From Prevotella sp. (GTDB taxonomy: Bacteria; Bacteroidota; Bacteroidia; Bacteroidales; Bacteroidaceae): a stretch of DNA of 64,000 nucleotides. The stretch covers positions 19,202 through 83,201 of the forward strand of contig JAFUST010000034.1 of NCBI GenBank assembly GCA_017467535.1. The letters run 5' to 3'. Made by a program: the position numbers and the translations under genes. Shown in pieces: positions 17,943 through 30,821 of the stretch (the stretch's first letter is position 1; the number at the start of each line of letters is the position of its first letter). Below the pieces are notes generated by a model. The model made no database searches and was not told the origin of the DNA. It saw only the letters and a list, made by a program, of their open reading frames with translations.

Positions 17943-17989
17943 CAGCAGAAAAAGACAACTGAATGTATAACAACAAAAAGAATACGATT

Positions 17990-18958
17990 ATGAAGAAGAT
18001 GATGTTTACCCTTGTTACCATGCTGACGATAGCAGTATCGGCTAACGCTATGTCCTACGAACAGGCACGCAACGAGGCTCTCTTCCTGACCGACAAGATG
18101 GCTTACGAGTTGAACCTCAGCGATGCCCAGTACGAGGCAGCCTACGAGATCAACCTCGACTACCTGATGGGAGTGACCAGTTACAACGACGTGTTCGGCA
18201 CCTACTGGGAGCGCCGCAACCTGGACCTGAGTTACATCCTCTACTCCTGGCAGTGGGACCTCTTCCGTGCCGCCACCTATTTCTACCGCCCGCTCTACTG
18301 GGAGGGAGGCTACTGGCACTTCGGCATCTATGCCCGCTATCCGCATCGCGACTACTTCTACTTCGGGCGTCCGCACTTCTTTGCCACCTATCGCGGCGGA
18401 CACAGTTGGCGTGTCAACGGTCGCAGTTACTACGAGGGACGTCATGACTTCTTCCGCCCCAGCAGGCCTCGCGACCAGCACTTCGGCATGCGCAACGGCT
18501 GGGATCGCGGTGACTATCATCATAACTACGGACGCAGTTCCACCCGTGTGACCGTCGACCACAACCGTAACATCAACAACAGCCGCTCCTTTGAGGGTAA
18601 CCGCAGCATCAACAGCAACCGAAGCAACAACACCGGCTCGTTCCAGGGCAATCGCAGCAACAGCAATACCGGCTCGTTTCAGGGCAGTCGCAGCAACAGC
18701 AATACCGGCTCGTTCCAGGGCAATCGCAGCAACAGCAATACCGGCTCGTTCCAGGGCAGTCGTAGCAACAGCAATACCGGCTCGTTCCAGGGCAGTCGCA
18801 GCAACGGCAATACCGGCTCGTTCCAGGGCAGTCGCAGCAACAACAGCGGTTCCTTCCAGGGAACACGCAGCGCAGGCGGCAGTTCAATGGGATCGTCCAG
18901 CAGCAACCACAGCAGCAGCCGCTCCGGCGGCGGTCACGCTGGTGGAAGCAGGAGATAA
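17990..18958 (+). CDS. Secreted protein with Ser/Asn/Gly-rich 12-residue repeats
   Basis: An unrecognised exported protein. ATG at 17990 is preferred to 17963 because it places the signal peptide (MKKMMFTLVTML ... ANA) at the N-terminus, giving 322 aa. A helical region begins SYEQARNEALFLTDKMAYELNLS, followed by a Tyr/Trp/Arg-rich portion with phrases such as YARYPHRDYFYFGRP. The C-terminal third is about seven repeats of NTGSFQG(S/N)RSNS and then a Ser/Gly tail. The repeats look like a flexible, polar, possibly glycosylated surface stretch. The exact family is not recognised; the helical head resembles proteins that bind or bundle in the periplasm. Confidence 0.75.
   Translation: MKKMMFTLVTMLTIAVSANAMSYEQARNEALFLTDKMAYELNLSDAQYEAAYEINLDYLMGVTSYNDVFGTYWERRNLDLSYILYSWQWDLFRAATYFYRPLYWEGGYWHFGIYARYPHRDYFYFGRPHFFATYRGGHSWRVNGRSYYEGRHDFFRPSRPRDQHFGMRNGWDRGDYHHNYGRSSTRVTVDHNRNINNSRSFEGNRSINSNRSNNTGSFQGNRSNSNTGSFQGSRSNSNTGSFQGNRSNSNTGSFQGSRSNSNTGSFQGSRSNGNTGSFQGSRSNNSGSFQGTRSAGGSSMGSSSSNHSSSRSGGGHAGGSRR
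18632..18871 (+). repeat. 36-bp coding tandem repeat, about 6.5 units
   Basis: ACCGGCTCGTT(C/T)CAGGG recurs at 18632, 18668, 18704, 18740, 18776 and 18812, with a diverged unit at 18848, a strict 36-base period. The unit encodes NTGSFQG(N/S)RSNS. High DNA identity points to recent unit duplication or loss. Confidence 0.9.
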
Positions 18959-19553: not shown

Positions 19554-19662
19554 ATATTTCAGGCAAAAAAACAGACGCATCACCATCCCAACAATCATCT
19601 CAGATTATTTTTCTCAATTTCGCTTCCACCTTCCACTGACTGATGCGTCCCATATCAGTACA

Positions 19663-19780
19663 AGTGCCTACTTTCTGTCGACGAAGTGCCTACTTTCTGT
19701 CGACGAAGTGCCTACTTTCTGCCGACGAAGTGCCTACTTTCTGCCGACGAAGTGCCTACTTTCTGCCGACGAAGTGCCTG
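19663..19780. repeat. 22-bp intergenic tandem repeat, five units plus a partial
   Basis: AGTGCCTACTTTCTG(T/C)CGACGA (two halves AGTGCCTACTTTCTG and YCGACGA) repeats exactly every 22 bases from 19663 to 19772, then a partial AGTGCCTG. The gap 19516-20037 otherwise holds only the operators and promoter near its end. There are no unique spacers, so it is not a CRISPR. A related 22-bp series lies at 38569-38634. Confidence 0.9.
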
Positions 19781-19948: not shown

Positions 19949-19988
19949 AACTAAGAGTATTAGTTTTATTTAACTAAATAAATTAGTT
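19949..19988. promoter_or_regulatory. Twin dyad operators, probable BlaI binding sites
   Basis: AACTAA-N5-TTAGTT occurs twice, at 19949-19965 and 19972-19988, both arms perfect, centres 23 bases apart. The second dyad covers the expected -33 region of the promoter at 20007. The operon transcribed from there encodes a BlaI/MecI-type repressor, which in known systems binds dyads of similar size at its own promoter. Binding here is inference. Confidence 0.65.
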
Positions 19989-20006
19989 TAACTCTCCCGT
20001 ATTGTT

Positions 20007-20014
20007 TACCTTTG
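20007..20014 (+). promoter_or_regulatory. -7 box of the GLPGLI-receptor-BlaI-M56 operon
   Basis: TACCTTTG followed by CACCC; the start codon is 23 bases downstream. The twin dyads lie directly upstream. Confidence 0.65.
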
Positions 20015-20037
20015 CACCCAAAATCAAAGGAAACGAT

Positions 20038-20868
20038 ATGAAGAGACTGATCACTTTACTCGCCCTGCTCCCCTCGTGGCTGGGCATACTGGCCCAAGAG
20101 GCTGACAAGACCGTGCTGAAAATTCACTACAGGACATCAGCCCGAACGCATGCCGATGACACCTTGCATCAGGAAGACACGCATGCGCTTTTCATCGGAG
20201 AACGCACATCTAAATACCTCAGCCTGAATACCCTGCGCCGCAATCAGGCACTGGACTCACTGAAATACAGGGGCAAGATGTCGGTAGCCGAACTGTCTGA
20301 CGTCATGAACAGCAGCAAGATGCCCAAGGCCGGCTCCACCTATATGGTGATAAAAGGGTGGCCCCAAGAGGGACAGACCGTATATATCGCCCCCGTGCTC
20401 CGCACGAAATATGCCGTCAGCGACACCCTGCACCCCTTCGACTGGCAACTGCTGGAAGGTGATACGGCCGTGGCGGGTTACCAGTGCCAAAAGGCGCAGT
20501 GCACCTGGCGAGGTCGCACATGGACAGTATGGTACGCGCCCGAACTGCCCTATGACAATGGACCCTGGAAACTGGGCGGGCTGCCTGGCCTGGTGCTCCA
20601 TGCTGAAGATGCCGCGGGCGACTTCTGTTTCAGTGCTCAGGAGATCATCAAGGGCCGGGGCGAGCCCATCCTTCCGGAAAAGAAACTGTCCTACTGCACG
20701 ATGAAGGAGTACCAGTCGGTGAAGACCAAGATGGAGAGCGACCCTGCCGGCTTCATCAGCCAGATGACGGGAGGCCGTATCACCCTGGGCGGCACCCTGC
20801 CCGACGGCACCGAGTCGGTCATTCCCTCCCACCAACCCCTATTCATGGAATCAATAGAGAAGAAATAA
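20038..20868 (+). CDS. GLPGLI family exported protein, first copy
   Basis: A 276-aa protein of the GLPGLI family (TIGR01200), whose biochemical role is not established. A signal peptide ends near LAQEADKTVL, and the family motif appears as PYDNGPWKLGGLPGLVL near residue 185. The conserved YQCQKA(Q) and WTVWYAPELPY strands precede it. ATG at 20038 is used because the frame further upstream lacks the signal sequence and begins before the promoter. It is the first gene of the operon, 6 bases before the second copy, which shares its plan and motif and points to a tandem duplication. Confidence 0.9.
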   Translation: MKRLITLLALLPSWLGILAQEADKTVLKIHYRTSARTHADDTLHQEDTHALFIGERTSKYLSLNTLRRNQALDSLKYRGKMSVAELSDVMNSSKMPKAGSTYMVIKGWPQEGQTVYIAPVLRTKYAVSDTLHPFDWQLLEGDTAVAGYQCQKAQCTWRGRTWTVWYAPELPYDNGPWKLGGLPGLVLHAEDAAGDFCFSAQEIIKGRGEPILPEKKLSYCTMKEYQSVKTKMESDPAGFISQMTGGRITLGGTLPDGTESVIPSHQPLFMESIEKK

Positions 20869-20874
20869 TAAGGT

Positions 20875-21702
20875 ATGAAGAAAATAATTCTCTCCCTCCT
20901 GCTGGCCCTGCCCGCTGGAGCAATGGCCCAAGAGGCAGACAAGTCGGTGCTGGAAGTGCGCTACCGCGTGGACTACCGAAACAACATGAACGATTCGACC
21001 CTGCATAACGACGACTTTGCCCTGTGGATAGGCGAACGGCAGTCGAAATACTTCAGCATGCGAACAAAACGCAACCAGGAGGTGCGCGACTCGCTGCAAA
21101 AGGAAGGATACGACAGTCACCAGATGCTGGACGCGCTGCGCTCTGGGGCTATCCCCAGGAGCGGTCAGCCCTACGTGGTGATGAAGAACTGGCCGAAGGA
21201 AGGGAAGATGCTCTTTCTGGACAATGTGTTCTCCGACTGCTACGGCTGCGAGGACGAGATGTATCCCTTCGACTGGCAACTGGTGGAAGGCGACACGGTG
21301 GTGGCGGGCTACCAGTGCCAGAAGGCACAGACGACGTGGCACGGCAGGACTTGGACGGTGTGGTATGCACTGGACCTGCCCTACGACAACGGCCCCTGGA
21401 AACTGGGCGGTCTGCCCGGCCTGATTCTCTCGGCTCGCGATGCCGCCGGCGACTATGCGATGGAGGCGCAAGCCATCCTGAAAGGCAAGGGCGATGCCAT
21501 CGGTTATGCAAACAAATACGAGAAATGCACGCAGAAGGACTATCAGAGCCTGAAGCGCAAGATGGCGGAAGACCCAACGGCTTTGCTGAAGCAACGCTAC
21601 GGCAACCAGGTGAAAATCGTCAGCATTGACAGCACTGGAAAACGAACGGAAGGCTGGATAGGAAACACGCCTGTCTTCTTCGAAATCTTCGACAAGAAAT
21701 GA
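20875..21702 (+). CDS. GLPGLI family exported protein, second copy
   Basis: A 275-aa paralogue of the preceding protein. It has a signal peptide (MKKIILSLLLALPAGAMAQ), the start EADKSVLEVRYRVDYRNN, and the motif PYDNGPWKLGGLPGLIL near residue 175. The block YPFDWQLVEGDTVVAGYQCQKAQ is almost identical to the first copy, while the N-terminal third and the tail diverge. The stop overlaps the receptor gene start by four bases. Two copies next to one receptor suggest they act as a pair or on related ligands in the periplasm. Confidence 0.9.
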   Translation: MKKIILSLLLALPAGAMAQEADKSVLEVRYRVDYRNNMNDSTLHNDDFALWIGERQSKYFSMRTKRNQEVRDSLQKEGYDSHQMLDALRSGAIPRSGQPYVVMKNWPKEGKMLFLDNVFSDCYGCEDEMYPFDWQLVEGDTVVAGYQCQKAQTTWHGRTWTVWYALDLPYDNGPWKLGGLPGLILSARDAAGDYAMEAQAILKGKGDAIGYANKYEKCTQKDYQSLKRKMAEDPTALLKQRYGNQVKIVSIDSTGKRTEGWIGNTPVFFEIFDKK

Positions 21703-24242
21703 GACGCGCCCTCCTACACCTGTTTTTATGTATCGCCCTGCCCTCACTGGGACAGACGATTGCCTACTCAGGACGCATCGTGACCGATGGCGGAGCGCCC
21801 CTGGGACAGGTGTCGGTGGTGGCGGCCAACGGCGGAATGAAGACGGTGGCCTTTGCCCGTTCGAAGGCCGACGGCACATTCGAAGTGAAGGTATCGCCAG
21901 ACAAGGAGGCACAGTGGCTGATCTGCTCGAAGATGGGCTATGGCCGCGACACACTGGCCCTTGCCACCTTCCGCAGCGGACAGACCATCACCCTGCACGA
22001 GGCGGCGGTAGAGATCAAGGAGGTGAAGGTGAAGGCACAGCCCATTCGCGAGGAGGGCGACACGCTGAACTACAACGTGGCGGCCTTCCAGCAGAAGCAG
22101 GACCGCTCGATAGCCGATGTCATCAAGAAAATGCCAGGCATGAAGGTGAACGAGGACGGGTCGATAGAATACGACGGCAAGAAGATCAACAATTTCTACG
22201 TGGAGGGTATGGACCTTACGGGGGCGAAGTATGCCCAGGTGTCGGAGAACCTGCAGGCCGACAAGGTAAAAAAGGTGCAGGTACTACGCAACCATCAGCC
22301 AGTGAAGGCACTGAAGAATATCAACTTCAGCGAGCAGGCCGCGCTGAACATCGTGCTGAAGGACGATGCCAGGAACGTATGGCAGGGCTTTGCCGACCTG
22401 GCCGGCGGACACTCGCTGCAGGGCGAGGGTCGGTGGCTGGGCGACGATCGCTTGATGCTGATGCAGTTTGCCCGCAAGCGGCAGAGCATTTCAATGTACA
22501 AGTTCAACAACACGGGCAAGGACATCAGCCGCGAGGTGCTCGACATCGGATCGCTGTCCGACTATGCCCCCATGGAGAGCGGCCTGCTGTCGAACATCGC
22601 CCTCGGAGCACCTTCGCTCGACAAGCGGCACAGCACCTTCAACCAGACACACATGGTGGCCACCAACTGGCTCTTCAAGACACGGGGGCAGAACGACCTG
22701 AGGGTGCAACTGAACGGACTGCTGGACAAGGGCGACCAGAACCGTCTGACGGAGACCGTCTATACCGACGTGATGGGTGGCGCAACGGTAGTGGAGGACG
22801 TGACGGCTACCAGCCATGCCGACCGCCTGAACGGCGAGGTGCAATACAAGGTGAACCGCGACAGCCTCTACGTGAACAACTCGCTGAAGGGCCACATCGA
22901 CTTCAAACGCTCCAACGGCCTGTCGCTCGACGGCCATGGCGGCGAGATTCGCGAAAGCGTGAAGCCCCGACAGCGCTCCGTGGCCGACCAACTGAGAATT
23001 GTCAGGACCATCGGCCGGCGGAGTTACCGACTGAATGCCTACTTCTCCTACAACAACCTGCCGAGCCAACTGCTGCTGACCGACGGGGCGTGGCAACGGC
23101 TCGATCTGCAGAGCGTGTTGTGGGGAGCCACCACCGGCTATGGCCGACGGGTGGGGAGAATCGACGTCAACTGGACGCTGAACGAGGATGCCAAGTACCA
23201 GCGACTGGACACGCAGCACCCCACGGCCGACAGTCGCAACAAGTACGACGAGTACAAGACGAAGTTGACTACTGCCCTCTCCTACCGCAACGAGGAGTGG
23301 CGCGTCAACCTCGACCTGCCGCTGTCGTGGCTCGCTCGCCGGCTGGACGACAGGAGTCGCAGCGATGCCCTGCTGGAGCCTCGCCTCTACGTGAACTACC
23401 AGCCGACGCCCAAATGGGAGTTCCACACGACCTACAACTACGCATGGTCGCCGCTCGACGTGAAGCAGTCGGCCCCCGTGCCCGTCTACACCACCTATCT
23501 GTCGATGCGCCGCGGCAACGGCCAGTTTGACAACACCTGTGCTCATGCCGTCTATGCCGACGCCCAGTACCACCACGCCCTGAAAGGGTTCTTCGCCAGC
23601 ATGCGCTTCCACTATGCCGCCCTGCAGCATCAGCCACTCTACCGGTCGGCCCTCACGTCGACGGGTGTCTACCAACAGGAGGCCACCGACCGCCACACCC
23701 ACTCCGACAACTGGCAACTGACGGGCAGGGTGAGCGAGGGTTTTTCCTTCGGCAAGTTTACCACCGCCATCGAGGCCGGCATCGGCCGCAACAACTACCG
23801 CGTGCTGCTGGCTGATGTGCTGACGCCCAGCAGGATGGACACCCGTTCGCTGCAACTGAACCTGAGTGCCCAGCCCGTCAAATGGTTTTCAGTAGAAGAG
23901 GCATCGACCTACGACTACAGCCGCCAGACGGTCAGCGGCACACACCACGACCCGCTGCAGTCATTCTCGCATCAACTGAAACTCTTCGTAATGCCGGGCG
24001 ACTGGCAGGTACAGTGGATCACCGACCTCTACCACTCCAACGACCGCACGGTGAACACCTGCGTGTTCAGCGACCTCGCCGTCTCCTATCGCAAGAAGCG
24101 CTACGAGGCCGGCATCTACTGCAACAACCTGTTCGGCAACCGCCGCTACGAACGGCGCACGGTCAGCACCACGCAGGCCGTCTACACCATGAACCGCCTG
24201 CGGCCTCGTGAAATCATGGCAAGAATATATTTCAACCTATAA
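21699..24242 (+). CDS. TonB-dependent receptor-like outer-membrane protein
   Basis: An 847-aa outer-membrane barrel protein. After a signal peptide, a carboxypeptidase-regulatory-like domain spans about residues 20-105 (YSGRIVTDGGAPLGQVSVVAA). A plug-like region follows: DTLNYNVAAFQQKQDRSIADVIKKMPGM and INNFYVEGMDLTGAKY, the form found in OMP_b-brl_3 type receptors. The rest is alternating beta strands to the final ARIYFNL, a typical outer-membrane terminal strand. It would import or sense a ligand brought by or passed to the GLPGLI proteins. It starts within the GLPGLI stop and ends 3 bases before the BlaI gene. Confidence 0.85.
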   Translation: MRRALLHLFLCIALPSLGQTIAYSGRIVTDGGAPLGQVSVVAANGGMKTVAFARSKADGTFEVKVSPDKEAQWLICSKMGYGRDTLALATFRSGQTITLHEAAVEIKEVKVKAQPIREEGDTLNYNVAAFQQKQDRSIADVIKKMPGMKVNEDGSIEYDGKKINNFYVEGMDLTGAKYAQVSENLQADKVKKVQVLRNHQPVKALKNINFSEQAALNIVLKDDARNVWQGFADLAGGHSLQGEGRWLGDDRLMLMQFARKRQSISMYKFNNTGKDISREVLDIGSLSDYAPMESGLLSNIALGAPSLDKRHSTFNQTHMVATNWLFKTRGQNDLRVQLNGLLDKGDQNRLTETVYTDVMGGATVVEDVTATSHADRLNGEVQYKVNRDSLYVNNSLKGHIDFKRSNGLSLDGHGGEIRESVKPRQRSVADQLRIVRTIGRRSYRLNAYFSYNNLPSQLLLTDGAWQRLDLQSVLWGATTGYGRRVGRIDVNWTLNEDAKYQRLDTQHPTADSRNKYDEYKTKLTTALSYRNEEWRVNLDLPLSWLARRLDDRSRSDALLEPRLYVNYQPTPKWEFHTTYNYAWSPLDVKQSAPVPVYTTYLSMRRGNGQFDNTCAHAVYADAQYHHALKGFFASMRFHYAALQHQPLYRSALTSTGVYQQEATDRHTHSDNWQLTGRVSEGFSFGKFTTAIEAGIGRNNYRVLLADVLTPSRMDTRSLQLNLSAQPVKWFSVEEASTYDYSRQTVSGTHHDPLQSFSHQLKLFVMPGDWQVQWITDLYHSNDRTVNTCVFSDLAVSYRKKRYEAGIYCNNLFGNRRYERRTVSTTQAVYTMNRLRPREIMARIYFNL

Positions 24243-24245
24243 CAT

Positions 24246-24608
24246 ATGAAACAACTGACACAGAAAGAAGAAGAGATCATGGAGCGCTACTGGCAACACG
24301 GCCCCATGCAGATTCGCGAGTTGCAAAGTCACTACGACGAGCCGCAACCACATGTGAACACCCTCGCCACGCTGGTAAAGATACTGGAGGAAAAAGGATT
24401 CCTCGGCCACAAGGCCCTAACGGCCCGCAGTTTCCAGTACTTTGCCCGCATCAGTCGTGAGGACTACAAGCGCGGTTCGCTGGCCACGGTCATCGACAAA
24501 CTATTCGGTTGCTCCTACAAGAATGCCGTCTCGGCCCTGGTGAAGAGCGAGAAGATCTCGATAGACGAACTGAAGGAACTCATCAAGGAAGTGGAGGCCG
24601 GCCAATGA
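24246..24608 (+). CDS. BlaI/MecI/CopY-family repressor
   Basis: A 120-aa winged-helix repressor. The N-terminal DNA-binding domain (residues 1-75) carries LTQKEEEIMERYWQHGPMQI and the recognition region PQPHVNTLATLVKILEEKGF, matching the penicillinase-repressor family. The C-terminal helix (around 80-120) would form the dimer and the cleavage region. In staphylococci the repressor is inactivated by the BlaR1 metalloprotease; here an M56 peptidase gene overlaps its end by four bases. It probably represses its own operon through the dyads at 19949-19988. Confidence 0.93.
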   Translation: MKQLTQKEEEIMERYWQHGPMQIRELQSHYDEPQPHVNTLATLVKILEEKGFLGHKALTARSFQYFARISREDYKRGSLATVIDKLFGCSYKNAVSALVKSEKISIDELKELIKEVEAGQ

Positions 24609-26068
24609 TGTTTGTGTATCAACTCAAGGTGGGCCTCTGTCTCATAGTCTTCTACCTGCTGTTCAAGTGGCTGCTCAGCCGCGAGACCTTCCACCGCTTC
24701 AACCGCGCGGCGCTGCTCTCTCTCGTGGTGCTGTCGCTGGTGTTGCCGATGGTCAACCTCACGGTGGAGCAGCCCACAGTGCTCACGCAAGGGCTGATGG
24801 AGATGGAGGCGATGATAGACAACGGTGTGGAGCCGGAGTCGGAAGAGCATGCCAAGACCTTTGTAGCGACTATGCTCGCATACCTTATATATGCCATCGG
24901 CTGCTGGGTCTTTTTGTTCCGCGAGTGGTGGTCGTACCACAAACTGCGCTCGCTGATGCGCCGCGGTCGGATTCGTCAAACCATCGACGGCGTGAAGGTG
25001 CACGTGGTTAGCGACCAAGACATTGCACCCTTCAGTTGGTTCGGCCATATCATCATGTCAGAAGAGGACTACGAGCAGAATCGGTCGGAAATCTTGAGCC
25101 ACGAGATGGCCCACATCAGGCGGCATCACTCGTGGGATGTGGTACTGATGAACGTGCTGTGCATCTTCCAGTGGTGCAACCCCGCCGCCTGGCTCATCAG
25201 ACAGGAGTTGCAGCAAGTACACGAATACGAGGCCGACCAGGCCGTACTGGCCGAGGGCTTTGATGCCCGCCAGTATCAGTTGCTGCTCATCCGCAAGAGC
25301 GTGGGCGACCATCTCTACTCGATGGCCAACAACCTGAACCAGCACTCGCTGCGCCGTCGCATTCGCATGATGTCGGCCCGCCACTCCAACGGCTGGCAGC
25401 GGCTCCGTCTGCTCGCCGCCCTGCCGCTGGCCATTGGGGCCGTAGTGGTATTCGCCCATCCGAAGGTACAGAGCGTGATGGGGCAGATTGAGCGCGACGC
25501 CCAGCAGCCCATCATGCAACAAGAGGAAGAGACATTCGACGTGGTGGAACAGATGCCGACATTCCCCGGCGGCAACGAGGCCCTGACACGCTATCTGACA
25601 GAGGTTATCGACTATCCCGAGGAGGCACTGAAGAACAACATCAGCGGGCGTGCCGTTGTGTCCTTCGTCGTCACCGAGGAGGGATGGATTGAATCGCCAA
25701 AGATCATCAAGAGCATCGACCCGCTGCTCGACCAAGAAGCCCTGCGTGTGGTCAGCGAGATGCCCCGGTGGACGCCCGGCTTGCAGAACGGCAAGCCTGT
25801 ACGAGTGCGCTACTACGTGCCCATCACCTTCAAGCAGGTATCAACGGTAGAGGACGAATCTGTCGATTTACAGCCCGTCCGCCAAGCCGTCCATGCCACC
25901 CGCGACATGCTGATCATCATCGACGGTCAAGAAACCTCACTGGAAGCCCTAAAAGCCCTTGAACCAAACCATATTAAGAACGTCAACATCGTAAAAGGTC
26001 CTCAAGCCGCCGAGCAATACGGCGAAAAGGCCCGCAAAGGTGCCATTATCGTGGAGATGAAGCAGTGA
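24605..26068 (+). CDS. M56 (BlaR1-like) metallopeptidase with TonB C-terminal domain
   Basis: A 487-aa inner-membrane sensor protease. ATG at 24605 overlaps the BlaI stop and restores the normal N-terminal helix; the frame opens further upstream but without support. Three membrane segments lie near residues 4-24, 34-51 and 78-103. The zinc site is LSHEMAHIRRHH near residue 164 with a likely third ligand in QQVHEYEADQAVL near 205. A fourth membrane segment lies around 264-282. After a linker comes a TonB C-terminal domain (about 315-415: EEALKNNISGRAVVSFVV). The tail 425-487 (LIIIDGQETSLEALKALEP ... YGEKARKGAIIVEMK) resembles a receptor-plug hairpin. It may link the outer-membrane receptor to BlaI cleavage. 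Confidence 0.9.
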   Translation: MMFVYQLKVGLCLIVFYLLFKWLLSRETFHRFNRAALLSLVVLSLVLPMVNLTVEQPTVLTQGLMEMEAMIDNGVEPESEEHAKTFVATMLAYLIYAIGCWVFLFREWWSYHKLRSLMRRGRIRQTIDGVKVHVVSDQDIAPFSWFGHIIMSEEDYEQNRSEILSHEMAHIRRHHSWDVVLMNVLCIFQWCNPAAWLIRQELQQVHEYEADQAVLAEGFDARQYQLLLIRKSVGDHLYSMANNLNQHSLRRRIRMMSARHSNGWQRLRLLAALPLAIGAVVVFAHPKVQSVMGQIERDAQQPIMQQEEETFDVVEQMPTFPGGNEALTRYLTEVIDYPEEALKNNISGRAVVSFVVTEEGWIESPKIIKSIDPLLDQEALRVVSEMPRWTPGLQNGKPVRVRYYVPITFKQVSTVEDESVDLQPVRQAVHATRDMLIIIDGQETSLEALKALEPNHIKNVNIVKGPQAAEQYGEKARKGAIIVEMKQ

Positions 26069-26081
26069 CGAGTAATTCTGC

Positions 26082-29000
26082 TCATAAATCAATTTCACTT
26101 TTTCCCTTTGTAAGAATCACATTCGCCAAGCAGACGGCATATTCCATCTTAGAGTCTTGGGGTTTCCAGGCTAAGATATAACTTACCTTTGCACTGGTAA
26201 CTTCATAGCCTCTGGCTATCCATGAATCTAATATCTTTTTTCCACGCTTGGATAAAGAAATGATGTTGATTTCCTGTTCATTAAGCAAGTAACCGTCTTT
26301 ATACTTTAGGCTGTCACCACTTCTCAATCTCAGCACGATATCCTTACGCCCCTTGAAGAAGTCGAGCAAGACATCATGCATATCCAATGCAATCGAGATG
26401 GCCGAATAATCAACTGGAGGATTTGTAACGAGGTAGAGGTTACGCTTGGCACGGGTCAGCCCGACATAATAGGCGCGCATATTGTTGTTATCCATATCAT
26501 CAGGTACCGGCGAAAGCAAATAGACATTGTCAAATTCGCGTCCCTTTGCCTTATGGATGGTGCTTACAAAGACTGAGCGATCGTCTGCGGCAATAAAGTC
26601 TTCTATATTCGACTCAAAGATATATTCACGCAAGTCGCTACGGTAAAAACAACTATGCGTCATTTCAAAGTCGGCAAAGAAGTGCTTCATGATGTTAAGA
26701 CATGTACTTGATGCATATACTTCGAGCGTACGCCGTTTTGCCTCTTGCCACCTCTCTTTGGATATAGTCACACCTTCATTTTCCCCTATTTGTCTGAGGA
26801 AATAGCGAACTTCTGCAAGATTGCCAAAACGGAAGCCGCCCATTGACTGGACGATAGTCGCATGTAAGCCTCGCTGTTCCAGTTCGTAAGCCACCTGCAT
26901 GGTCTCTTCATTGGTACGAGTTAGTATCGCTGTACTTCCCTGTACATTGATCTCAACATTTTGTAGCGATTTCAGACTCATTACTTTGCCCTCCATTCCC
27001 GCTGTTGCACCTCCCCGCAGCCTTTCACCTGTAACAGACTGGATAGGTGAATGCTTCATACGGCCAGATATACGACTAACGAAGCGGTTGGCACAGTCTA
27101 CAATGGCCTTCGACGACCGATAGTTGTCAGTCATCTCGTATAACTTTGCACCTTCTTGAGCCACGAGCGATTGCATATACCGGGAATCAGAACCACGAAA
27201 GTCATAGATGTTCTGGTCATCGTCGCCTACGGCTATCACACGCATTTCCTCATTCTGGTGCATCAATGCTTGAACCAGTCGGTAATCATCAGCGCCCATA
27301 TCCTGAGCCTCGTCTATAACAAGGACACTCTTGGCGATCTTCGACTGCTCCACCTCGTTATTCTCTATCATCTCGGCAGCACGCCGCACTACATCTTTTG
27401 CTTCATCCAGATTTCCCTGTTTGCCAATTAGGTCAAAACTATAAGAGTGGAATGTCTTGATGTCCACATAGTGCGCCGCATTGCCCACAAGTCCAATGAG
27501 TCGTTTCTTGAACTCAGTAGCCGCGGCTCGTGAGAAGGTAAGCATCAACAGTTGCTCGTGCTTCACATCTTCCAACAGCAGAAGTGAAGCCAGTTTGTGT
27601 ACCAACACTCGTGTCTTGCCGCTACCAGGTCCTGCGGCCACAACGATATACTTTGACTGCTTGTCATCAATAATCTCACATTGACGATTGGATAGTTCTC
27701 CAAAGAGTTTATTGTATTTTGCAGGTGTAATGTTCTTGTCTATTTGCGCACGACGTTCCTCTTTGAAATACAGGTTGATAAACTTGCGAAAGTCCATCAT
27801 GAAATAATCGTTTACAAAGCGGAGTGCCGCATCATAATCACGTACCATCAAGTTTGCATATTCGCCCACGATATGTATCTGGCGGATGCGCTGCTTATAA
27901 AACTCATCCAACAGTCGATATTGCTCCTTGCCATATCGGGTACGACGGTCAACGATGCGGCCAATCTGCATGGTGTTATAGATGACAATGAAACCACCCT
28001 CTATCTTCATCAGTTCAGTTTTGGTTAAGTAGAGCAGAGCCTCCTCTATATCTGTAATGGCGGGCTTCTTGTGCTCCCCAAGCATCGTTTTCTGTTGAGT
28101 AGCAATAAACTCATTAAGAAGTTCAACAATAGAGAAATTGACGAGCGTCATATCCTTGTCGGCATCTCTGACAGCATTGAGTTTGTCAACAATAAAACGA
28201 CAGATGTCCCTTCGTCGTTCAAACCGCGACATAGTTACTTCTTCCGAAGCCTGCAGACGGACACTCACACTTTCGCTAGACCTATGCTCTTGCTTGTGGA
28301 TATATCCTTTAAGCGACATAAAATGAAGCAACATCCGCAGACGTTTCACGTTGGAATATGTAAGATGTGCTTTTTGCGCTTCGTCATTCAGTTCTTTGTA
28401 GTTCACCCTCTGCGTCTCCATTGTAAGCCTTTGCAAAAGGAAGTGCTCTAACTTCAGTATAATGTCGAGATTACGCTGCGAAGTGCTCTTCGAAATCCAC
28501 GCCTGCATGTCGCGGCTATCAGCCAACAATCCGTCCTGCCGCATCAGATTAATATTGTGGATAACAGTCGACTTGCTCATGCCAAGAATGTCTGCCAAGT
28601 AATCGATGCGGCTCTCCGCTTCTGCGCCCCTACCGTCTGCGGTAGCCCATGCGCTGATAAGCGACTTGATGATACGGGCTGCTTCCTCGCGCGACTGATC
28701 ATCAAAGTGTGGAGAAACGGTCAACTTTCGCCGTGCCTCATCCATATTTTTCACGGCAATGCCCGTGGCAAAGACATGCGGAGAGTTACTGCCCCTGTGA
28801 ATAAAGCCAGCGTCCTCCAATGCTGCGATGGCGGCTTTTACGCGGGTCTCGATGTCTTCCACATCCTCCCCCCATCCTGCTTGGCGAGCAATATCCAATG
28901 GCGAGCAACTGACTTTATCCTGTTTTGACGTAAGGTCTTTAATGGCTTTCCATACCTGCTGAATCTCACTGATACTGAGTTTTGTCTGGTTAAGCAGTAT

Positions 29001-30821
29001 GAAATGCTTGTCCAGATCGCTGTCGGCATAGAGTACAAAACATTCAGCCTGCATTTCTGGGTCACGTCCGGCACGACCGGCTTCCTGCACATAGTTCTCC
29101 AGCGAGTCGCTGATATTGTAGTGAACCACCAGCCCCACGTCTTTTTTGTCAACCCCCATCCCAAAAGCAGAGGTGGCTACAATGACTTGCGCTTCACCAC
29201 TCATAAACGCATTTTGGTTTTTCACCTTCTCGGCTGCCTCCATCTTGCCATTGAACGGCAAAGCCTGTATACCATCTTGAACTAAATGCTGTGCTAACTC
29301 ACAAGTGCGTCGCGTGCGAGACACGTAAACAATGGAAGGACAATTATGTCCCAATATTAGCGAGCGTAGCAGATTGTATTTCTCCTCAGCAGTATCAGCA
29401 TGGAGCACTGAATAGCGCAGGTTCTTTCGTTCAGCATTGGCGGCAAAGACTTTCAGTTCCAGCCCCAATTTCACCCTAAAGTAGTCACAGATGTCACTGA
29501 TTACCTTCTGCTTTGCCGTTGCTGTAAAACAGGATACCGCAATTGGTTGACTCAGATGTTTCTTTTCTTGCAGTTCACGAATAAAGTCACCAATATAAAG
29601 ATAGTCCACTCGGAAATCATGCCCCCAAGCAGAGAAACAGTGTGCCTCATCAATCACGAATCGGACGACATTTCTGCCTATGAGCAGTCGCTCAATGGTC
29701 TTGCTGCGCAGCATCTCTGGTGCGATATACAGCAGATTAGCAGTACCATCGGCCACTTGTTCAATGGCTATGGCTCGTTCAATAGGGTCAAGTAGACCGT
29801 TGATGGTTACCGCCTCACTGATACCGCGAGCCGTCAAATTATCTACTTGGTCTTTCATGAGTGACTGCAACGGCGAGATAACCACCGTCAACCCATGCGT
29901 GTTTCTCCCTGCCATCAAAGCAGGCAATTGGAAGGTGAGACTCTTGCCGCCTCCCGTCGGAAATATTGTCAGCAAAGACTCACCACGAATGGCTGATTCA
30001 ACGGCTTGTTGCTGCATCGGTACACCGTCGAAGGTACGAAACTCATCATAGCCAAAGAATTCTTTCAATCCGCTATGAGCATCTAACCTGCTTTGGCAGT
30101 AACTGCATTCTCCGCACGACGTATTGCACAACAGATTCATCACATTGACCACCTCTGGATAATTGCGAATAACCCAAGCGGGAGTAATGGAAAAAATATC
30201 GTCAGCCCCAATCACAGCCAGGCAGTAGGCCAATTCTATCCGAAACTGTTTAACCAGCATTTCAAAGTCAGCATGACTACATACTTTGCCTTCAAATTCT
30301 TTTAGAATCATCTGTCTCAAATCGGGGTGAATTCCTAGTGTTCTATCCAAAAACGCCTTTGTCGTAGACGTAGAATAGCCTATATACTTGAAGAATCCTT
30401 TAAACTGTTCAGTGCCATGTAGCAGTTGAAAATATATCTCTTGCCTCTCTGGTGATAATTGGTTCCAAACAGCAATTTCATCGTTCAGTAAATCACGGGC
30501 TTTCATGGAGTCATTCACCGGATTGTTCAGTTCTTCTACTTGAAGTTTGTCATCCTTCACCAGATGGTGATAAGGCCGCTTGGGAAACAGCAGGGGCGAT
30601 AAAAATAGTGTATCAACGATCGTAGGATTACCTCTCAACACTGTATATTTCAAATCGTGATTGATGATATTATGCCCACAAACAGTGTCGCATCCAGACA
30701 CAAAAGCATCGAAATCCACTTTGGAACGAGAGTGCAACACCGCACCATCTTCCCTAACCGCTCCATAATCCGCAACTTTCTTGGTTTGCGGATTAACCTC
30801 CGTATCAATAAATGCTATCAT
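26082..30821 (-). CDS. Exonuclease-RecQ-UvrD fusion helicase
   Basis: A very large 1579-aa DNA-processing protein. Residues 1-120 look like a DEDD exonuclease (FIDTEV at 4-9; GHNIINHD near 50). A four-Cys cluster, CNTSCGECSYC, lies near 233-243. A RecQ superfamily 2 helicase spans roughly 260-620: Walker A FPTGGGKSLTFQLPAL near 287, DEAH box FVIDEAHCFSAWGHDF near 390 and the QEAGRAGRD motif near 580. A superfamily 1 UvrD/Rep helicase spans about 1030-1530: AAGPGSGKTRVLVHKLASL near 1064, VLVIDEAQDMG, TIHKAKGREFD and YVGLTRAKRNLYLV. Similar fusions are known in Bacteroidetes, and their role (repair or defence) is not settled. It overlaps a 27-codon ORF by four bases and has its own promoter. 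Confidence 0.92.
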   Translation of the reverse strand: MIAFIDTEVNPQTKKVADYGAVREDGAVLHSRSKVDFDAFVSGCDTVCGHNIINHDLKYTVLRGNPTIVDTLFLSPLLFPKRPYHHLVKDDKLQVEELNNPVNDSMKARDLLNDEIAVWNQLSPERQEIYFQLLHGTEQFKGFFKYIGYSTSTTKAFLDRTLGIHPDLRQMILKEFEGKVCSHADFEMLVKQFRIELAYCLAVIGADDIFSITPAWVIRNYPEVVNVMNLLCNTSCGECSYCQSRLDAHSGLKEFFGYDEFRTFDGVPMQQQAVESAIRGESLLTIFPTGGGKSLTFQLPALMAGRNTHGLTVVISPLQSLMKDQVDNLTARGISEAVTINGLLDPIERAIAIEQVADGTANLLYIAPEMLRSKTIERLLIGRNVVRFVIDEAHCFSAWGHDFRVDYLYIGDFIRELQEKKHLSQPIAVSCFTATAKQKVISDICDYFRVKLGLELKVFAANAERKNLRYSVLHADTAEEKYNLLRSLILGHNCPSIVYVSRTRRTCELAQHLVQDGIQALPFNGKMEAAEKVKNQNAFMSGEAQVIVATSAFGMGVDKKDVGLVVHYNISDSLENYVQEAGRAGRDPEMQAECFVLYADSDLDKHFILLNQTKLSISEIQQVWKAIKDLTSKQDKVSCSPLDIARQAGWGEDVEDIETRVKAAIAALEDAGFIHRGSNSPHVFATGIAVKNMDEARRKLTVSPHFDDQSREEAARIIKSLISAWATADGRGAEAESRIDYLADILGMSKSTVIHNINLMRQDGLLADSRDMQAWISKSTSQRNLDIILKLEHFLLQRLTMETQRVNYKELNDEAQKAHLTYSNVKRLRMLLHFMSLKGYIHKQEHRSSESVSVRLQASEEVTMSRFERRRDICRFIVDKLNAVRDADKDMTLVNFSIVELLNEFIATQQKTMLGEHKKPAITDIEEALLYLTKTELMKIEGGFIVIYNTMQIGRIVDRRTRYGKEQYRLLDEFYKQRIRQIHIVGEYANLMVRDYDAALRFVNDYFMMDFRKFINLYFKEERRAQIDKNITPAKYNKLFGELSNRQCEIIDDKQSKYIVVAAGPGSGKTRVLVHKLASLLLLEDVKHEQLLMLTFSRAAATEFKKRLIGLVGNAAHYVDIKTFHSYSFDLIGKQGNLDEAKDVVRRAAEMIENNEVEQSKIAKSVLVIDEAQDMGADDYRLVQALMHQNEEMRVIAVGDDDQNIYDFRGSDSRYMQSLVAQEGAKLYEMTDNYRSSKAIVDCANRFVSRISGRMKHSPIQSVTGERLRGGATAGMEGKVMSLKSLQNVEINVQGSTAILTRTNEETMQVAYELEQRGLHATIVQSMGGFRFGNLAEVRYFLRQIGENEGVTISKERWQEAKRRTLEVYASSTCLNIMKHFFADFEMTHSCFYRSDLREYIFESNIEDFIAADDRSVFVSTIHKAKGREFDNVYLLSPVPDDMDNNNMRAYYVGLTRAKRNLYLVTNPPVDYSAISIALDMHDVLLDFFKGRKDIVLRLRSGDSLKYKDGYLLNEQEINIISLSKRGKKILDSWIARGYEVTSAKVSYILAWKPQDSKMEYAVCLANVILTKGKSEIDL

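Follow-up and report, generated by a model that had tools for sequence, protein, structure and literature searches.

How a bacterium passes information about its outer membrane to the promoters of its receptor genes is the question raised by a cluster in the window, a 64,000-nucleotide stretch of Prevotella sp. contig JAFUST010000034.1, in which two GLPGLI genes and a receptor gene are followed by genes for a BlaI-type repressor and an M56 peptidase with a TonB domain. We examined what controls this cluster, what its peptidase might sense, and how widely the arrangement recurs. Loci in other genomes are referred to by L numbers.

Organization of the Operon and Its Promoter

The cluster consists of five co-directional genes on the + strand (20038-26068), encoding in order two GLPGLI proteins, a TonB-dependent-type receptor, BlaI, and an M56 peptidase. 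Consecutive genes are joined by a gap of 6 bases, an overlap of 4, a gap of 3, and an overlap of 4, and the five are predicted to be co-transcribed as a single transcription unit. The gene set, its promoter, and two perfect AACTAA-N5-TTAGTT dyads, on which an earlier note on this DNA had based its proposal of a trans-envelope sensing operon, were all confirmed in place. The sequence TACCTTTG at 20007..20014 (+) matches what we take to be the -7 box of the Bacteroidota promoter consensus. Since this box starts at 20007, the right half of dyad 2 would fall at about the -33 region under the Bacteroidota promoter rule. The genome of origin (2.39 Mb, 79% complete) contains two loci each for BlaI, M56, and GLPGLI, and both of its GLPGLI genes are those inside the operon.

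The surroundings of the operon contain further features. Upstream of the operon promoter, a 22-bp tandem repeat of 5.4 copies with 98% matches occupies 19662-19779, and its own upstream neighbour was labelled by eye as a phosphoglycerate-mutase-like gene. An ORF at 17963-18958 (+) contains six copies of a 36-bp repeat (18628-18842) that encode an N/S/G-rich repeat. At 26082-30821 (-), a 1579-aa protein combines a DEAD/Helicase_C (RecQ-like) half with a UvrD half, and its N-terminus appeared exonuclease-like by eye.

The Tandem Dyads as a Predicted BlaI Operator

Dyad 1 (19949..19965) and dyad 2 (19972..19988), neither of which is assigned to a strand, match AACTAA-N5-TTAGTT exactly and lie 23 bp apart, a spacing also found in L169, L200, L205, and L254. 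When up to two mismatches were allowed, two dyad matches were reached in 19 of 100 shuffles of the 64-kb window; two loose matches in the window are therefore unremarkable, and the case for the dyads rests on their exactness and on genome-wide data, not on the window count. The operon's two dyads are the only exact ones in their own genome, which has four further sites at one mismatch. Single exact dyads were present in 50 of 251 family genomes, a number that is uninformative by itself because a control pattern, judged by eye from counts that were not summed, looked no rarer. Among 30 fetched loci with a single exact dyad, BlaI was located within about 250 bp in 20, and no BlaI was found within the fetched stretch in 10.

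The tandem form, searched with a start-to-start distance of 23 bp and at most three mismatches, was detected in 113 of 398 genus genomes, as against 3 sites for the control pattern. We examined 39 of the about 115 tandem-dyad sites in the genus. The dyads were directly 5' of BlaI at 36 of these (29 of one set of 30, five more, L200, and L205) and 5' of GLPGLI-receptor units at the other three, namely the window, the RUG11701 locus L169 (via a TPR gene), and L205. In L205, a near-identical operator-promoter precedes the GLPGLI-receptor unit and again the BlaI-M56 unit. A chance origin of the dyads was rejected on their exactness in the genome of origin and on the genus count relative to the control, and a motif unrelated to BlaI was rejected on the finding that nearly all examined sites precede BlaI. 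The genus comparison thus identifies the tandem dyads as a predicted BlaI operator. Together with the recognition match described below, these counts support the earlier proposal that BlaI represses its own operon through the dyads.

The BlaI Recognition Region Matches the Operator

The BlaI repressor (24246..24608, +; 120 aa) is of the P-H-V-N-T recognition type and matched both MecI/BlaI structures and PF03965 (E 1.6e-26, 93.4 bits against a cut-off of 22.6). Upstream DNA could be read for 87 BlaI genes, of which 69 have P-H and 18 have P-A in the recognition region. Of the 69 P-H BlaIs, 65 had a dyad with at most one mismatch in the 300 bp upstream, vs none of the 18 P-A BlaIs, a count in which many rows had been fetched through the dyad itself; in the separately counted subset fetched solely by BlaI/M56 similarity (n = 30), such a dyad preceded 16 of 19 P-H and 0 of 11 P-A BlaIs. 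The four P-H exceptions were the second BlaI of the genome of origin and that of L020, with two mismatches each, and the BlaIs of the window and of RUG11701. The latter two have no proximal dyad at up to one mismatch and instead have tandem dyads at the operon head, which in the window places the operator 4.3 kb upstream of BlaI. These data point to an operator code in which BlaIs of the P-H-x-N-T type go with AACTAA-N5-TTAGTT, and among the sequence evidence it is this match between operator and recognition region that argues most strongly for BlaI control of the entire operon. The P-A BlaIs of L015, L129, L198, and L173 showed other palindromes by eye, some with shorter spacers (e.g., TACTAAA..TTTAGTA), and BlaI operators therefore seem to change along with the recognition region.

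Direct cleavage of BlaI by BlaR1 is described in PMC9834060. At the known scissile bond, the P1' residue is L in the window's BlaI, and F (56) or L (33) in 89 aligned rows, which comprise the 87 fetched BlaIs, MecI, and the window's BlaI again; Asn at P1 was not conserved. F/L at P1' is compatible with cleavage of these repressors, as judged from the alignment.

The M56 Peptidase and Its Periplasmic Tail

The peptidase (24605..26068, +; 487 aa) matched PF05569, over its cut-off, and the BlaR1 structure 8exp, and carries the motifs HEMAH...E207xxxD211. Hydropathy alone gave four hydrophobic segments taken as TM helices, and the zinc domain falls in the stretch that separates TM3 from TM4; by analogy with BlaR1, this domain would be cytoplasmic and the tail (residues 286-487) periplasmic. 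The residues H166, E167, H170, E207, D211, and Y224 were invariant across 59 M56 sequences, a non-random sample of peptidases beside BlaI that includes the window's. Motifs of BlaR1 named in PMC9834060 are HEXXH, EXXXD, and a conserved Tyr261.

Within the tail, TonB_C (residues 336-410; 25610..25834, +) matched PF03544 over its cut-off (E 9.5e-21) and the TonB structure 6i97. Intact zinc motifs and this match agree with the earlier description of a BlaR1-type peptidase with a TonB_C tail, which had omitted a third module: a plug-like piece corresponding to the C-terminal half of a SusC/RagA-type plug (residues about 430-486; 25898..26062, +). This piece matched TIGR04056 (E 5.6e-6), RagA 6sm3 (E 0.0015), and, below the cut-off, PF07715 (E 0.0014). 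Earlier TonB surveys reportedly noted M56-TonB fusions in Bacteroidetes, and we therefore do not claim the fusion itself as new.

Similar modules recurred in the other tails. At E<=0.01, Pfam detected TonB_C in 54, CarbopepD_reg_2 in 14, and Plug in 12 of the 59 M56 sequences, and our own iterated HMM, trained on the 59 themselves, recovered the plug piece in 36 (32 in the first round). Positions 2-75 of TIGR04056 matched the tail of L198 (E 2.8e-18) and positions 4-63 that of L239, and positions 152-208 matched the tail of L254 (E 1.2e-15) and also that of L153. Because TonB_C, CarboxypepD_reg, and plug pieces recur, many of these tails are built from modules of TonB-dependent transport. Regular expressions found a plug motif in 14 of the 59 tails and a TonB-box motif in 5; since so few tails, and not the window's, contain TonB-box-like strings, these are a minor argument. 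BLASTP detected no similarity between the window's tail and the neighbouring receptor, and the tail as a copy of that receptor was rejected on this ground. A penicillin-binding sensor domain was likewise not found in the tail (blaR1_generic, 25 bits against a cut-off of 400).

A TonB_C domain over the cut-off, encoded in one operon with a receptor, could also belong to a dedicated energy transducer for that receptor, with a vestigial peptidase. This seems very improbable to us, as the zinc ligands and catalytic residues are invariant in all 59 sequences, the genome of origin has four TonB_C loci besides that of the operon, and four of the ten peptidases linked to receptors lack TonB_C (L129, L142, L153, and L198, which are four of the five TonB_C-less members of the 59). 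Energy transduction as the main role was rejected on the first two of these grounds.

The GLPGLI Proteins and the Receptor

GLPGLI protein 1 (20038..20868, +; 276 aa) and GLPGLI protein 2 (20875..21702, +; 275 aa) matched TIGR01200 with E values of 1e-42 and 1.2e-44 (146.5 and 152.9 bits, cut-off 50). The PNGase_F-II_N match was just below the cut-off for the first protein and above it for the second, and the family profile matched PNGF-II 4r4z (residues 81-182) and a solved GLPGLI-named protein, 7zgn. The N-terminus of protein 1 is hydrophobic, and the protein is predicted to be periplasmic. GLPGLI genes are listed among the changed genes in the PhoP table of PMC9603813 and in the PG0720 table of PMC8757827, with no function given for them there.

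The third gene (21699..24242, +) encodes an 847-aa TonB-dependent-type outer-membrane receptor with a putative barrel, whose Pfam matches to CarboxypepD_reg and Plug are both below the cut-off. The label OMP_b-brl_3 given to it previously has to be withdrawn, as no match to this Pfam family was found at E<=1. The receptor family profile matched SusC N-terminal domains (E 3e-13) and, weakly, the barrel of a ferripyoverdine receptor (E 0.006). A conserved LKEV..KA segment stands where a TonB box is expected; within it, residues E108 and V109 are kept in at least 90% of 46 sequences.

Linkage of Receptor Units and BlaI-M56 Pairs Across Genomes

The closest parallel to the window's layout was found in the uncultured Prevotellaceae genome RUG11701 (L158, identical to L169), in which tandem dyads with one mismatch each are followed by a TPR gene, one GLPGLI gene, a receptor gene, BlaI, and M56; the receptor, BlaI, and M56 are 66%, 77%, and 43% identical to those of the window. 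The order BlaI-M56-GLPGLI-receptor was found in L129, L153, L198, L200, and L254 and, in varied form, in L147 and L142, and L205 holds the two as split units, so that the linkage occurs in three gene orders. Among the 40 top receptor loci of the genus, five had a same-strand BlaI within 3.5 kb, and among 40 of the family, four did (9 of 80), a count that includes L173, whose BlaI-M56 adjoins another receptor fragment, and L142 by way of its first receptor, its GLPGLI-side receptor being more than 3.5 kb away and not labelled as linked on the receptor tree. None of the 80 held a BlaI in any other position, and no BlaI was found in the fetched stretch of the other 71, some of which were cut by contig ends. 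Some loci had been selected with their neighbourhood in view: L147 and L153 with a nearby M56 known or suspected, L137 for its dyad, and L254 for a nearby receptor match. On a FastTree receptor tree of 81 rows, 9 of them linked and with long branches for L153 and L152, the linkage to BlaI-M56 changes at least five times, counting gains or losses.

A phylum-wide GLPGLI search gave 84 of 296 genomes over the cut-off, and the best 30 loci all belonged to the window's class. Viewed from the repressor side, the bare BlaI-M56 pair was the commonest form (19 of 40 BlaI rows), and the operon walk met a recognised receptor-type gene in 3 of the 40, where neighbours were labelled by our own seed sequences alone and some remained unlabelled. 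Further cargo beside BlaI-M56 included TPR or thioredoxin-like genes, and TonB_C/plug-like tails were also found on pairs adjoining no recognised receptor gene. A universal GLPGLI-receptor-BlaI-M56 operon was rejected on the 9 of 80 receptor loci and on the prevalence of the bare pair. The adjacency search suggested in the earlier note thus upheld a recurrent linkage.

Several neighbourhoods merit separate description. The second BlaI-M56 pair of the genome of origin (L069, G000:C8:20500-33500) is followed by a same-strand 216-aa gene with no Pfam match and by a gene for an OMP_b-brl_3 barrel protein. In L242 (3112-9921, +), the tandem operator precedes a BlaI-M56-TPR-OMP_b-brl_3-thioredoxin-like run, another receptor-type cargo. 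In L079 (4595-7583, -), two thioredoxin-like genes separate BlaI from M56, and another such gene follows M56. M56-like matches occur near receptor and GLPGLI genes in L144 (4373-4876, +) and L156 (4645-5595, +), with no BlaI in the fetched stretch.

The rarity of BlaI among the receptor loci (none in 71 of 80), and of receptor-type genes among the BlaI rows, would suit an accidental neighbourhood, in which a BlaI-M56 pair that regulates itself came to lie behind a functionally unrelated GLPGLI-receptor operon. We disfavour this explanation as improbable: the operon-head promoters of the window and RUG11701 carry the BlaI operator with no dyad at up to one mismatch before BlaI, the linkage changed repeatedly on the receptor tree, and wherever a receptor locus held BlaI at all, the gene was on the same strand and close by.

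Proposed Mechanism and Inducing Signal

Taken together, we favour, with a probability of about 0.55, a BlaI-controlled receptor operon that is induced when the peptidase tail registers altered TonB-dependent transport. Bound to both dyads over the promoter, BlaI dimers would keep all five genes repressed, their own included. The M56 protein would act as a BlaR1-type inner-membrane peptidase with a cytoplasmic zinc domain and a tail of TonB_C and half a SusC/RagA-type plug. This tail may respond when TonB-dependent transport at the outer membrane changes, with a receptor's state as the most likely cue and the co-encoded receptor as one candidate; the zinc domain would then cut BlaI, and the operon would be induced. 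Induction would then raise the receptor, its presumed periplasmic GLPGLI partners, and the switch itself together. The parts of this reading differ in strength: that the operon is BlaI-repressed and M56-derepressed is in our view highly probable, and that the tail senses a receptor is put forward tentatively. Receptor sensing is plausible because the tail consists of transport modules and because such pairs have repeatedly been joined to receptor genes; it is graded low because some linked peptidases lack TonB_C, similar tails occur without a receptor, and the tail does not resemble the receptor. The earlier claim that the TonB domain reads this particular receptor is unsupported as it was worded, given the four TonB_C-less peptidases among the ten linked ones and the 3 of 40 BlaI rows with a receptor-type gene.

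It is also conceivable, at odds clearly below even, that the input to the BlaI-M56 pair is not the co-encoded receptor but, for example, envelope stress, an antibiotic, heme or metal, or the overall state of TonB, with the GLPGLI-receptor unit only as output. Similar tails on bare pairs and on pairs beside TPR or thioredoxin-like genes speak for this, as does the SusC/RagA-type plug piece, which is unlike the neighbouring receptor. In the same direction, PMC10470040 reports that a P. gingivalis BlaI gene adjoining an M56 gene changes its expression with hemin, and we regard this response as a lead for the inducing signal. Against an unrelated signal, GLPGLI-receptor units have been joined to such pairs repeatedly, and L205 carries near-identical operators on both units.

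Going beyond the sensing of transport change favoured above, a more specific and rather doubtful possibility is that Bacteroidota possess a kind of cell-surface signalling built on a protease, in which the antibiotic sensor of BlaR1-type peptidases has been replaced by parts of the outer-membrane transport machinery: TonB_C, CarboxypepD_reg, a half-plug, and, in a few peptidases, a TonB-box-like strand. Such a tail might join or compete in the pairing of TonB with receptors and so convert the transport state into BlaI cleavage and induction of the receptor operon.

Our literature search found no paper on BlaI-M56 pairs with TonB, plug, or CarboxypepD tails in Bacteroidota, on the operator code, or on this operon, and no account of what relatives of the M56 peptidase sense; in the portions of PMC12578637 and PMC12204202 that it returned, the matches were chance word matches. 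In the family, 247 of 251 genomes contain a match to the peptidase at E<=1e-20, which makes its relatives common there. The predicted operator code, P-H-x-N-T with AACTAA-N5-TTAGTT, would make BlaI targets readable from sequence, and the receptor together with the TonB modules in the tails offers a concrete guess at the signal. If the mechanism is true, it would represent a second chemical means by which receptor state crosses two membranes and would give the GLPGLI proteins a regulatory setting.

Comparison with Known Systems

The operon resembles the BlaI-BlaR1 and MecI-MecR1 systems of Gram-positive bacteria in pairing a winged-helix repressor with a four-TM M56 gluzincin that carries HExxH and ExxxD, a likeness reflected in the MecI and BlaR1 structure matches. 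Unlike those systems, whose operator is of the TACA type, it has the operator AACTAA-N5-TTAGTT; its peptidase tail consists of TonB_C and a plug piece, with no penicillin-binding sensor domain found; and the adjoining output genes, instead of a beta-lactamase, encode a receptor and GLPGLI proteins.

FecA-FecR-FecI cell-surface signalling employs a receptor signalling domain, an anti-sigma factor, and an ECF sigma factor. The proposed mechanism would be similar in that the state of an outer-membrane receptor is relayed to an inner-membrane protein and transcription of the receptor operon is freed. Here, however, BlaI and an M56 peptidase would take these roles: no sigma or anti-sigma gene is present among the five genes, and the receptor had no STN match at E<=1.

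The operon also shares the class-wide pairing of GLPGLI genes with receptors, as a receptor of the same family adjoins GLPGLI in 21 of the best 30 phylum-wide loci; it differs from that pairing in its BlaI and M56 genes, which were found within the 1.5-kb flanks of none of those 30. Finally, the tails of M56 relatives match positions 2-75 and 152-208 of the SusC/RagA profile TIGR04056, and the RagA plug matches the window's tail, but, unlike in SusC/RagA, these modules occur without a barrel and are fused to a predicted inner-membrane peptidase.
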